This document shows, piece after piece, positions 1,237-38,590 of a stretch of 64,000 bases of DNA. The DNA lies in the NCBI RefSeq assembly GCF_003384935.1, contig NZ_QTTQ01000009.1:434001-498000 (forward strand). Direction: 5' to 3'. This DNA comes from Lutibacter oceani. Lineage in GTDB: Bacteria > Bacteroidota > Bacteroidia > Flavobacteriales > Flavobacteriaceae. The notes under the pieces were generated by a model. The model did no database searches. It was not told the origin of the DNA and saw only the letters and a program-made list of their open reading frames with translations. A program made the position numbers and the translations under genes. Position 1 is the first letter of the stretch. Every line of letters starts with the position of its first letter.

Positions 1237-1299
1237 TTTATAAATTTGGCATAAACATAGGAAGTTAATAAGAAGAAATACTTTGTAAAGTATTGTATG

Positions 1300-1397
1300 T
1301 TATCTTTCCATTATTTTGGTAGAATGTAGCACCTTCTTTCTTTTTAAAGGGTTGCCAAGGCTTCAACAGGTCTATTCCCTCTGCCTTTCTTAATAAC
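1300..1397 (-). promoter_or_regulatory. SAM-I (S-box) riboswitch upstream of metH
   Basis: On the minus strand the conserved S-box core is readable: AAGAAAGGCAGAGGGA, then GACCTGTTGAAGCCTTGGCA, ACCC and GGTGCTA. The closing helix is TTAT near 1396 with ATAA near 1300. SAM-I aptamers bind S-adenosylmethionine and normally switch transcription off. Just downstream, 1277-1294 is a short palindrome (AATACTTT paired with AAAGTATT) followed on the transcript by TTCTTCTTATT, a weak candidate terminator. The aptamer call is secure; the expression platform is not. Confidence 0.93.
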
Positions 1398-1422
1398 TAA
1401 ATGTATGTTTATGAACTTTTTG

Positions 1423-9565: not shown

Positions 9566-9652
9566 GGGCGTTCCCTTTCAGGTCGCGCTATCCGTTATAT
9601 CTTTTTTTTCGTTGCACTTCAAAAAAGGACGCCACTCCTATCGCTAACGCAT
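9566..9652. repeat. Flavobacterial GGGCGTTCC...GCTAACGCA dispersed element
   Basis: Starts GGGCGTTCCCTTTCAGGTCG and ends CACTCCTATCGCTAACGCAT, with a T-rich/A-rich complementary middle (TTTTTTTTCG... TTCAAAAAAGG). I recognise this layout from memory as a short non-coding repeat seen many times in Flavobacteriaceae genomes, mostly between genes. Function and mobility are unknown. Only one copy is in this window. Confidence 0.6.
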
Positions 9653-9653
9653 T

Positions 9654-13090: not shown

Positions 13091-13192
13091 TAAATACTAT
13101 ATAAATTGATTTAAAATCAAAGTTTATTTGTTTCAGCTTAAAAAATAGTGTTACGAGAAATTGCGGAAATTACACGAAGTAATTACGTTGAG

Positions 13193-13289
13193 TTATCTAT
13201 CCAAAAATGGGTAGAATTTAGCACCTTCTTTAATTAATAAAGGGTTGCTAAGGCTTCAATGGGTCTATTCCCTCTGCCTTTCTTGATAA
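13193..13289 (-). promoter_or_regulatory. SAM-I (S-box) riboswitch upstream of metX-thrA fusion
   Basis: Minus strand reads TTATCAAGAAAGGCAGAGGG, then GACCCATTGAAGCCTTAGCA, ACCC, GGTGCTA and a closing AGATAA. This is a full S-box aptamer, about 80% like the one at 1300-1397. About 100 bases separate it from the start codon. I see no clear terminator hairpin with a U-run there, only a small AATTAC/GTAATT stem around 13170-13187, so the mode of control is unsettled. Confidence 0.94.
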
Positions 13290-13319
13290 CAATAGTCAAT
13301 AAGTTTATGAACTAAGCGG

Positions 13320-13374: not shown

Positions 13375-14655
13375 CTATTTTATAATTGTTTTAAAAGCTG
13401 CTGCTAAATCTTGCTTTAAATCTTCAATATCTTCAAGCCCTACTGACAATCTAATTAAATCTTGTGATACACCGGCTCCTTCCTGTTGCTCAACAGTTAA
13501 TTGTTGATGTGTTGTGCTTGCCGGGTGAATAATTAACGATTTTGTGTCACCAATATTTGCCAGTAATGAAAATATTTTAGTAGCGTCAGTCACTTTTTTA
13601 GCGGCTTCAAAACCACCTTTTACGCCAAAAGTAACCAGTCCACTTTGTCCTTTTGGTAAATATTTTTTAGCCAAGCTATTGTATTTACTACTTTCTAAAC
13701 CAGGGTAATTTACCCAAGCCACTTCGTTTCTACTTTCTAACCATTTTGCTAATTCCAATGCATTTGCACTGTGCTGTTTTATACGAACAGGCAACGTTTC
13801 TAACCCTTGAATAATTTGAAAGGCATTATATGGACTTAATGCTCCACCAAAATCACGCAATCCTTCTAAAATTAATTTAAATGTAAAAGCTGCAGCACCT
13901 AATGCTTCGCTATAAACTAGCCCATGATAACCTGCAGATGGTTCTGTAAATTCAGGAAACTTTCCATTTGTCCAATCAAAAGTTCCAGCATCAATTATAG
14001 CACCACCTAATGAATTTCCTTGTCCGCCAATATATTTTGTTAATGAATGAATTACAAGATTTGCTCCGTGCTTGATTGGATTTAACAACGCCGGACTTGC
14101 AACTGTATTATCCACAATAAATGGAACTCCGGCAGCTTTTGAATGTGCTGCAATTGCTTCTAAATCCAGTACATCTAATTTTGGATTCCCCAAAGATTCC
14201 ACAAAAAAGGCTTTTGTATTATCCTGAACTGCCTTTTTAAAATTTTCAGGGTTTGATGCATCAACAAATGTAGTTGTAATTCCTAGTCTTGGTAAGGTAA
14301 CATTTAACAACGTAAACGTACCTCCATACAAACTGCTGGAAGCTACTATATGATCTCCAGCTCTTAATAAAGTTAATAACCCTGTTGAAATTGCAGAAGT
14401 TCCAGAAGCAAAAACTACAGCTCCTATTCCTCCTTCAATGGCTGCCAAACGCTGTTGTAAAATATCGTTTGTTGGATTATTTAAACGTGTATAAATAAAA
14501 CCTAATTCTTTTAATGAAAATAAATTAGCTGCATGTTCTGTATCATTAAATACATACGACGTTGTTTGATAAATTGGAACCGATCTTGTTCCTGCTGTTT
14601 TGGTGGTATCGTGTCCTGCGTGTAATGCTTGTGTTGAAATTTTTTGAGTACTCAT
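13375..14655 (-). CDS. metY: O-acetylhomoserine aminocarboxypropyltransferase (sulfhydrylase)
   Basis: 426 residues, the typical MetY length. It has the family opening ALHAGHDTTKTAGTRSVPIY, FASGTSAISTGLLTLLRAGD and SLTKYIGGQGNSLGG with the PLP lysine near residue 205. It would combine O-acetylhomoserine with sulfide to give homocysteine. It is the only gene of the sulfur cluster preceded by the two Met-rich leader peptides and terminators (14696-14993). This makes it the likely target of methionine attenuation rather than a SAM riboswitch. The next gene downstream has its own promoter. Confidence 0.94.
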   Translation of the reverse strand: MSTQKISTQALHAGHDTTKTAGTRSVPIYQTTSYVFNDTEHAANLFSLKELGFIYTRLNNPTNDILQQRLAAIEGGIGAVVFASGTSAISTGLLTLLRAGDHIVASSSLYGGTFTLLNVTLPRLGITTTFVDASNPENFKKAVQDNTKAFFVESLGNPKLDVLDLEAIAAHSKAAGVPFIVDNTVASPALLNPIKHGANLVIHSLTKYIGGQGNSLGGAIIDAGTFDWTNGKFPEFTEPSAGYHGLVYSEALGAAAFTFKLILEGLRDFGGALSPYNAFQIIQGLETLPVRIKQHSANALELAKWLESRNEVAWVNYPGLESSKYNSLAKKYLPKGQSGLVTFGVKGGFEAAKKVTDATKIFSLLANIGDTKSLIIHPASTTHQQLTVEQQEGAGVSQDLIRLSVGLEDIEDLKQDLAAAFKTIIK

Positions 14656-14695
14656 TTTATATGATTTTTATATTTTAATTCAAATTTTTAACTGA

Positions 14696-14735
14696 AAAAG
14701 TCCCTTTGGTTTTAGGTATTACCAAAGGGACTTTT
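14696..14735 (-). terminator. Attenuator terminator 2, between leader peptide 2 and metY
   Basis: Strong hairpin: arms 14721-14735 and 14696-14710 (AAAAGTCCCTTTGGT with its complement), 15 bp around a 10-base loop. On the minus strand the 3' arm ends in a run of T. Its 5' arm and loop (14715-14726) are complementary over 12 bp (one G-U) to 14766-14777 inside leader 2, giving an antiterminator alternative. Confidence 0.9.
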
Positions 14736-14760
14736 ATCTAATCAGATTTTATTTTTCCAT

Positions 14761-14853
14761 TTATTTTTGGCAATACCAGTTCATTGTGCTCTGCATCATT
14801 TGCATAGACATTTCAATTCGATTGCACATGTTTTTTTGAAAATTAAAATTCAT
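14761..14853 (-). CDS. Met-rich leader peptide 2
   Basis: An ATG at 14853 opens a 30-codon frame ending in TAA at 14761-14763. Seven of 30 residues are Met (positions 1, 9, 15, 17, 19, 20, 24), with two Cys and one Trp. The segment EMSMQMMQSTM is the densest. Codons 25-29 (14766-14777) form one arm of an antiterminator. A ribosome stalled at Met19/20 would leave that arm free, while one reaching the stop codon would cover it. No similarity to a known protein is claimed; the case rests on the Met content and RNA structure. Confidence 0.78.
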   Translation of the reverse strand: MNFNFQKNMCNRIEMSMQMMQSTMNWYCQK

Positions 14854-14873
14854 TTTAGTTATTCTTTTAAAAT

Positions 14874-14897
14874 AAAAAACCTCTGATAAATCAGAGG
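14874..14897 (-). terminator. Attenuator terminator 1, between leader peptides 1 and 2
   Basis: Perfect palindrome CCTCTGATTTATCAGAGG (14880-14897) followed on the minus strand by TTTTTTATTTT. Its 5' arm CCTCTG (14892-14897) is also complementary to CAGAGG (14939-14944) within leader 1. Confidence 0.85.
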
Positions 14898-14944
14898 CTT
14901 CTAGTTGTTATATATTATTACATTTTAAACAATAGCATCCTCTG
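14891..14944 (-). promoter_or_regulatory. Antiterminator alternative to terminator 1
   Basis: Minus-strand pairing seen by eye: 14939-14944 with 14892-14897 (6 bp), 14933-14935 with 14901-14903 (3 bp), 14928-14932 with 14905-14909 (5 bp). A 3x3 internal loop and a one-base bulge separate the helices. It cannot coexist with terminator 1. It begins about 15 bases after the Met11-Met12 codons of leader 1 and contains its stop codon. Confidence 0.7.
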
Positions 14945-14993
14945 TGTAAATTTTACACATCATAATAGGCATATTGTTAAACATAATTTTCAT
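14925..14993 (-). CDS. Met-rich leader peptide 1
   Basis: An ATG at 14993 opens a 22-codon frame ending in TAA at 14925-14927. Five Met (positions 1, 4, 8, 11, 12), including MPIMMC. The start codon is about 14 bases after the predicted transcription start, so this is the first thing translated. The final third of the frame supplies the upstream arm of an antiterminator. This matches the classical layout in which ribosome stalling on scarce Met-tRNA lets transcription proceed. Confidence 0.8.
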   Translation of the reverse strand: MKIMFNNMPIMMCKIYTEDAIV

Positions 14994-15013
14994 TTTTCTT
15001 TATTTTGATGTGA

Positions 15014-15044
15014 CAAATGTAATCACATTTTTTTTAAATGCAAG
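15014..15044 (-). promoter_or_regulatory. Promoter of the metY attenuator transcript
   Basis: Minus strand CTTG (15041-15044), 19-base spacer, TACATTTG (15014-15021), an exact TAnnTTTG match. The predicted start is near 15007, just ahead of leader peptide 1. Confidence 0.7.
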
Positions 15045-15054
15045 AAAAAAATAA

Positions 15055-15477
15055 TTATTTTAATTCGGCGGTACCAAAACTTACTGAAAAATCTACACAC
15101 CAAATATTTACAATTTTATATTTTGATAGATCCGTACTTGCAGGAATCGAATACGTAAAATCACCTGATACACCTTTTAAATTTCCAAGATTTACATATT
15201 CAGTTGAATTGGTATCTGTTGATAAATAAACCAACAATTTTGGTCCGTTATCGGTTTTAAAGTTTGTAAATGTTAACGTCGTTTTATCAGAATTAACAGC
15301 AGCTTTCCCAGAAGTTGGATGTGCACCATCTATAAAATCTCCCATTATAAAAATGGTTTCATTCATATTATTTTCTTCATTTTCGATTTGCTCAACAATA
15401 GTTTCCATTTCATCGGCTCCTGAACAATTGCTAAATACTAAAGTAAAAAGCACTAATACGGTTATTTTTTTTAACAT
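15055..15477 (-). CDS. DM13-domain lipoprotein
   Basis: 140 residues from the ATG at 15477; earlier in-frame Met residues would bury the signal peptide. A hydrophobic stretch ends in the lipobox VFSNC (Cys near residue 17). Residues about 45-140 match the DM13 fold: GDFIDGAHPTSGKAAV, LLVYLSTDT and the C-terminal VNIWCVDFSVSFGTAEL with the conserved Cys. DM13 domains are proposed to take part in redox or adhesion; the true role is unknown. It sits between metY and metK but shows no functional link. Confidence 0.87.
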   Translation of the reverse strand: MLKKITVLVLFTLVFSNCSGADEMETIVEQIENEENNMNETIFIMGDFIDGAHPTSGKAAVNSDKTTLTFTNFKTDNGPKLLVYLSTDTNSTEYVNLGNLKGVSGDFTYSIPASTDLSKYKIVNIWCVDFSVSFGTAELK

Positions 15478-15591: not shown

Positions 15592-15603
15592 CAAACGAAA
15601 TAT

Positions 15604-15655
15604 TCAGAGGAAAAATTTGAACTGATTGCAACCTCATTAAAAAATGCTAAAGCAG
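15604..15655 (+). promoter_or_regulatory. SAM-II riboswitch upstream of metK
   Basis: GAGG, then ATTTGAACTGATTGCA, CCTC, ATTAAAAAATGCTAAAGC. The GAGG/CCTC helix, the ATTT...ATTGCA loop at standard spacing and the 3' GCTAAAG agree position by position with published SAM-II aptamers as I remember them (alphaproteobacterial and marine metX leaders). It forms an H-type pseudoknot around SAM. Downstream, 15669-15676 (CTTTTAGC) can pair with the aptamer's GCTAAAG, and 15684-15689 (GCAATC) with its GATTGC, an alternative fold. No U-run terminator is present, so output mode is open. Confidence 0.88.
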
Positions 15656-15724
15656 TAATAATTTACTCCTTTTAGCGACCAACGCAATCTTCAATTTTCT
15701 TAAACAATTTAAAATTAAATAATT

Positions 15725-38438: not shown

Positions 38439-38590
38439 TTTTTTTAATTTTTAAGGTTCTCGACCTTGGTTATAAATTTTGAGGTTGCAAATATAATGAG
38501 ATATTTTAATATATAAGGTTAAAAAGTATAAAAGTTTGGTTTTCAGTTGTGAGAAGTCAAAAAGTAAGAAGTAGGTTTTACATTTAACGA

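Follow-up and report, generated by a model that had tools for sequence, protein, structure and literature searches.

Two methionine-rich leader units in series upstream of metY in Lutibacter oceani, with the features of ribosome-mediated transcription attenuators

The metY gene of Lutibacter oceani lies in the 64,000-nucleotide stretch of DNA analysed here (the window) and is preceded by two complete leader units, each with a short Met-rich open reading frame (ORF), an antiterminator arm inside that ORF and an intrinsic terminator. We interpret these units as two trp/his-type ribosome-mediated transcription attenuators placed one after the other between a single promoter and metY, a reading to which we assign a probability of about 0.92. 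Such a two-gate arrangement had been proposed from the letters of the window alone, and comparison with related sequences supports it through conserved Met codons, conserved helices and compensatory changes. The leaders would respond to the charging of tRNA-Met and probably also to that of tRNA-Cys.

Organization of the metY leader

All elements of the leader are located on the minus strand (Table 1). The promoter, both leader frames with their Met counts, terminator 2 and the order of these elements ahead of metY agree with the sequence-only reading, and both antiterminator pairings were recovered as it had described them. Terminator 1 is likewise present, but its stem reaches 14902, past the boundary of 14897 given earlier. 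Arm 1 begins 13 nt past the second codon of the Met-Met pair and ends 11 nt short of the stop codon, and arm 2 begins 16 nt past the Met-Met codons and 4 nt past a last Met codon, ending 2 nt short of the stop codon of leader 2.

Table 1. Elements of the metY leader of Lutibacter oceani (positions in the window)
Element	Position	Strand	Description
Bacteroidota-type promoter	15014-15044	-	CTTG 15044-15041, 19-nt spacer, TACATTTG 15021-15014; read from sequence; would start the leader transcript
Leader ORF 1	14925-14993	-	MKIMFNNMPIMMCKIYTEDAIV; 22 codons, five Met; key ATG-ATG-TGT 14963-14955
P1 hairpin, unit 1	14943-14959	-	starts in the second Met-Met codon; minimum-free-energy fold; candidate pause or protector
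Antiterminator arm 1	14939-14944	-	CAGAGG, within leader 1; pairs with CCTCTG 14897-14892
Intrinsic terminator 1	14875-14902	-	12-pair stem, then T-run
Leader ORF 2	14761-14853	-	MNFNFQKNMCNRIEMSMQMMQSTMNWYCQK; 30 codons, seven Met; key ATG-ATG 14799-14794
Antiterminator arm 2	14766-14777	-	GGTATTGCCAAA, within leader 2; 12 pairs with TTTGGTAATACC 14726-14715, one G-U
Intrinsic terminator 2	14696-14735	-	loop holds part of the antiterminator target
metY	13375-14655	-	O-acetylhomoserine sulfhydrylase, putative regulated gene; TIGR01326, 619.4 bits against a cut-off of 495.1

The two units are real features and far from a chance occurrence. With a unit detector devised after the finding was known (an ORF with three or more internal Met and over 9% Met, and a terminator at most 120 nt away), exactly these two units were detected across 64 kb on both strands, and none of 2000 dinucleotide shuffles of 14656-15100 held even one unit. 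The motif TAnnTTTG, given as the sigmaA -7 consensus in PMC9723704, occurs no more than 70 nt ahead of leader 1 in 43 of 49 unit-1 rows (5% in mononucleotide shuffles), and in 35 of those 43 it lies 19-20 nt 5' of the ATG. A scan for this promoter type only found TAnnTTTG between terminator 1 and leader 2 in 0 of 39 gaps, which makes it probable that leader 2 is reached only by transcripts that have passed gate 1.

Conservation and covariation of the competing helices

To compare the helices, we aligned each unit with its counterparts in relatives. The unit-1 alignment has 29 rows, comprising 28 of the 29 left after a 90% redundancy filter (L042 was taken out) and L126, which was added manually; the filter input was 49 rows, with L040 and L074 omitted for length and L108 by name. 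The unit-2 alignment has 22 rows, namely the 23 of 42 rows that passed the filter minus L032 (empty reference), and omits five long rows (four from Kordia and one other) as well as L108, which contains an N. The Met codons and both helices are kept in these relatives, with compensatory changes.

In the unit-1 antiterminator, 84.7% of cells are paired and two pairs have two-sided changes (five cells in the 29 rows). Its covariation is 0.127 against 0.076 in shuffles, and its number of pair types is not above the shuffles (325 of 500 as high). For the unit-2 antiterminator, 92.0% of cells are paired, two pairs show two-sided changes (six cells in the 22 rows), and the covariation is 0.146 against 0.090 in shuffles. 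The terminators themselves are strongly conserved: the 8-pair core of terminator 1 is paired in 100% of 232 cells, with two-sided changes in four pairs, and terminator 2 in 97.3% of 264 cells, with two-sided changes in three pairs. The two-sided changes of the unit-2 antiterminator (G-C to A-U or C-G) fall within the terminator loop, and therefore the terminator cannot explain them.

Arms were then swapped between rows. In unit 1, 32 distinct arm pairs gave 192 of 224 pairings with their own partner against a mean of 184.9 after swapping, and in unit 2, 19 distinct arm pairs gave 207 of 228 against a mean of 198.6; none of 10,000 swaps reached the observed value in either unit. The swap test omits five unit-1 rows (L036, L007, L008, L042 and L122) and one unit-2 row, its motif filter favours look-alike rows, and both the shuffle and the swap controls leave shared ancestry in. 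The unit-1 antiterminator is not uniform: it is weak in L033 and L039, with only four continuous pairs and about -6 kcal/mol, and its pairing is different or doubtful in L007, L008 and L036. An ungapped scan ranks another site higher in 9 of 49 unit-1 rows (L007, L008, L018, L024, L036, L038, L039, L121 and L138).

A candidate third helix, hairpin P1, is conserved in unit 1 with weak covariation and had not been described in the earlier reading. It is predicted in most of the 29 unit-1 sequences, with 91.9% of cells paired, a covariation of 0.237 against 0.161 in shuffles and one pair with two-sided changes (four cells); the number of such pairs is not above the shuffles (398 of 500). P1 overlaps the first bases of antiterminator arm 1, and the Cys codon after Met-Met is also within it. 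P1 may act as a polymerase pause or as a shield of the arm, and would open when a ribosome stands on the Met-Met codons. The predicted fold of unit 2 has no evident hairpin of the P1 type.

Methionine and cysteine codons in the leader peptides

Analysis of the leader ORFs indicated that Met codons are held in frame and in register. In the 48 distinct unit-1 ORFs, 180 of the 193 ATG triplets after the start are in frame and 13 are out of frame; in the 42 unit-2 ORFs the figures are 242 in frame and 22 out of frame (242/264). Both counts are partly circular, since the ORFs were chosen for in-frame Met. Among 35 distinct unit-1 peptides with a common C-terminal register, Met stands at -12 in all 35 and at -11 in 30, and Cys at -10 in 25; among 35 such unit-2 peptides, Met stands at -16 in 28, at -14 in 32, at -12 in 27, at -11 in 31 and at -7 in 34. 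Position -12 of unit 1 is thus invariably Met and -7 of unit 2 nearly so, and the intervening residues are highly variable.

The earlier reading can be extended to Cys, whose codons are enriched to the same degree as those for Met. With the start codon and the antiterminator-coding end left out, Met makes up 24.6% of residues in unit 1 and 23.2% in unit 2, or 16.8 and 15.9 times its share in 23 window proteins, and Cys, for which the ORFs were not selected, makes up 11.9% and 9.5%, or 19.8 and 15.8 times. TGT and TGC, counted only where not preceded by A so that overlaps with ATG are removed, are in frame 86 times and out of frame 8 times in unit 1 (86/94) and 94 and 2 times in unit 2 (94/96). 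Decay of Met codons is an unlikely origin for the Cys codons, because these are more than one mutation away from ATG. Being both enriched and in frame, they suggest that the leaders read both sulfur amino acids.

The strongest alternative is that the leaders sense methionine only and that the Cys codons are there for RNA structure or by chance, which we consider slightly less than an even chance. It draws on the constancy of Met, the most constant residue (35/35 at -12 of unit 1), on the predominance of methionine genes downstream and on the inclusion of the unit-1 Cys codon after Met-Met in P1. Against these points stand the roughly 20-fold (unit 1) and 16-fold (unit 2) enrichment of Cys over the window proteins, the frame counts of TGT and TGC, and the leaders of Kordia and Flavobacterium sp. 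AED, which have Cys codons at other places too.

Proposed mechanism

When charged Met-tRNA, and probably also Cys-tRNA, is plentiful, the ribosome would reach the stop codon of leader 1 and cover the antiterminator arm, upon which terminator 1 would fold and transcription would end. When charged tRNA is scarce, the ribosome would stall on the Met-Met(-Cys) codons and leave arm 1 free to pair with the 5' side of terminator 1, allowing RNA polymerase to pass. Beyond gate 1, leader 2 would be transcribed and the same test repeated before metY.

With an ordinary ribosome footprint, a stall on Met-Met would leave the arm free, and a ribosome at the stop codon would cover it. Together with the geometry of the arms, this suggests that a low level of charged Met-tRNA, probably also of Cys-tRNA, would open both gates. 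In leader 2, a ribosome that stalled on the last Met would partly cover arm 2. Methionine starvation also affects translation initiation, and methionine shortage could lower initiation on the leaders as well. The minimum structure predicted for the ribosome-free RNA is the terminator. Since the isolated RNA prefers the terminator, which is what a device dependent on a ribosome stalled at the right moment would show, the antiterminator would have to win by timing.

Distribution of the leader units

A metY match at E <= 1e-120 was found in 29 of 38 same-genus genomes. Removal of L018 (a near-duplicate of L017 near the gene) and L023 (a fragment) from the 30 same-genus loci, which include L024, left 28 distinct metY upstream regions. 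All 28 have at least one unit, and 25 have both by the Met threshold; in L004 and L010 unit 2 alone passes this threshold, yet terminator 1 is kept, and L032 is cut by the contig end. The 'uncultured Lutibacter sp.' L105 has SAM-I and no leaders 5' of metY and groups with other genera on the MetY tree. In L012 and L015, and by its spacing also in L038, terminator 2 is separated from metY by an insert of about 250 nt that contains G+C-rich repeats.

Unit pairs are also located upstream of metY in Kordia and Flavobacterium sp. AED, and single units in two other Flavobacterium species and one Flavicella; several further genera also carry units. The 53 leader-bearing regions comprise 38 with both units, 9 with unit 1 only, 3 with unit 2 only and 3 unclassified, a locus whose unit is identical to that of another (L221) being scored as unclassified. 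In L330 and L331, both from the family, the Met-rich ORFs lack a terminator. Outside the family, one Met-rich ORF with a terminator was found in L325, and no such unit 5' of metY in L327-L329, L021 and L022. Outside the family but within the order, L020 (with the Met run MMMSLSMMM) and L326 have units of a Met-rich ORF and a terminator that are unlike those described here and are possibly independent inventions.

To identify the genes downstream of the units, covariance models were searched against 397 family genomes. The unit-1 model gave 35 matches at E <= 1e-6, of which 33 directly precede methionine genes: 29 metY, three metX (G194, G130 and G275) and one O-succinylhomoserine sulfhydrylase-type gene (G351). 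The other two are followed by a TonB-receptor gene and then unit 2 and metY (G367), and by a long ORF that is transposase-like by eye, metY being absent from the stretch examined (G059). All 20 unit-2 matches at the same threshold precede methionine genes, 19 of them metY and one metX. These counts are lower bounds because the strict search filters lose weak matches. At E <= 0.01 the unit-1 model matches in 298 of 397 genomes, mostly weakly. Six matches weaker than 1e-6 were opened: L339 has a leader pair before metY, L340 a leader 5' of an OsmC gene and metX, and L344 one Met-rich unit 5' of a gene, and inspection of L341-L343 found no Met-rich unit. Because of this mixed outcome, the weak matches were left out of the counts.

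At one Flavobacteriaceae metY leader (L332, 356-3971), a TonB-dependent receptor gene (PF00593, PF07715) lies between units 1 and 2, as if placed under gate 1 alone. At L290, an ORF judged transposase-like by eye lies downstream of a Met-leader pair.

Exclusion between SAM-I riboswitches and leader units

SAM-I (RF00162) is the regulator usually seen at metY in this comparison, and it differs from the leader units in that its aptamer senses SAM. We searched 255 loci with a SAM-I model derived from 18 Rfam-identified members and, after deduplication by the last 120 nt, compared 235 distinct metY upstream regions, three of them from other families. SAM-I is present in 171 regions, leader units in 53, both in none and neither in 11. 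The SAM-I copies are on the same strand, upstream of metY, at a median distance of 121 nt. In none of the 53 leader-bearing regions did the SAM-I model find a match ahead of metY, and the detector, run with slightly different thresholds, found no leader unit in the 171 SAM-I-bearing regions. As SAM-I and leader units are never together at metY, the units appear to take the riboswitch's place. This exclusivity at one gene was not part of the sequence-only reading. Some of the 11 regions with neither device resemble SAM-II by eye. Placed on a quickly built MetY tree with 124 rows, the regulator takes four changes, two of which are forced by well-supported branches; on this tree, the regulator would have switched at least twice and most simply four times.

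The position of the leader, where SAM-I riboswitches stand at other metY genes, fits the alternative of a metabolite riboswitch or a T-box in the upstream RNA, with ORFs that are incidental. We regard this as highly improbable and rejected it: conservation tracks the codons and the antiterminator, and an Rfam scan of the window at gathering thresholds found no family in the metY leader. Equally improbable is that the Met/Cys-rich peptides function as microproteins in their own right, such as metal binders, and that regulation is secondary; their composition is like that of copper-binding stretches, but the residues between the Met positions vary freely, and the arms of the terminator that closes each unit covary with the ORF.

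Elsewhere in the window, SAM-I copies lie before a metX-thrA fusion (13190-13292, minus strand) and before the gene for the N-terminal part of metH (1297-1399, minus strand), and none was found directly upstream of metY; SAM-II lies before metK (15601-15660, plus strand). The metY leader, the two SAM-I copies and SAM-II make four RNA regulators of three kinds within about 15 kb. Other RNA elements in the window are a Flavo-1 RNA (9577-9653, minus strand) between metX-thrA and an O-succinylhomoserine sulfhydrylase-type gene, and an S16-Flavobacteria ribosomal protein leader (38443-38477, minus strand).

Comparison with known systems and implications

To our knowledge, methionine is rarely named among the amino acids with leader-peptide attenuation, and the literature searched agrees with this. 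The metY leader is real and conserved, and it is best read as a variation on ribosome-mediated attenuation with no new principle. It shares with the textbook trp/his-type attenuators a leader ORF with codons for the pathway product, an antiterminator that competes with an intrinsic terminator and, as proposed here, a choice that depends on stalling; it differs from them in its Met (and Cys) codons, its Bacteroidota host and its two complete serial units.

The nearest parallels come from other bacteria. The mgtCBR leader of Salmonella likewise has two leader ORFs and two attenuators within one leader (PMC3641672). Its attenuators answer different signals, ATP and proline (PMC3641672), whereas the metY leaders share the same kind of codon, and the two serial metY units look like answering the same signal. 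The metL leader peptide of Streptomyces lividans, which precedes metNIQ, has several Met before methionine genes (PMC8079986), but is reported to show no typical Rho-independent terminator (PMC8079986), and it differs from the metY leader in phylum, gene and arrangement. The uORFC-8-2 element of Rhodobacterales cysS is a leader ORF that has Cys codons in tandem and an attenuator structure (PMC8632094); it differs in having Cys codons, in its position before cysS and in its phylum (PMC8632094).

Clues to leader-peptide attenuation at amino-acid operons have been reported in Flavobacterium psychrophilum (PMC9723704), and the word 'methionine' is absent from the main text of that source. For Actinobacteria, PMC1262725 reports that conserved RNA structures were not seen ahead of methionine operons. 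The sequence-only reading knew of no described methionine attenuator of this kind in Bacteroidota, and the literature searched does not contradict it, S. lividans metL being the nearest case (PMC8079986). None is described in the passages considered from PMC2965389, PMC1262725, PMC8079986, PMC7366714, PMC4833913, PMC8632094, PMC10272879, PMC9723704 and PMC3641672, and an earlier account of a flavobacterial Met leader is possible.

The metY leader thus represents a covariation-supported candidate attenuator for Met (and Cys), in series, in a phylum in which such regulation has been little studied. The distribution at metY provides a natural comparison of riboswitch and attenuator at one gene, and makes it testable what advantage a cell would draw from responding to charged tRNA instead of SAM, and from double gating. 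More broadly, the odds are about even that the units represent a general sulfur-amino-acid attenuator of Flavobacteriaceae, which reads the charging of both tRNA-Met and tRNA-Cys through two similar gates in series and has been exchanged repeatedly with SAM-I at metY. If this is true, metY would be under end-product (SAM) control in some lineages and under the control of translational demand in others.
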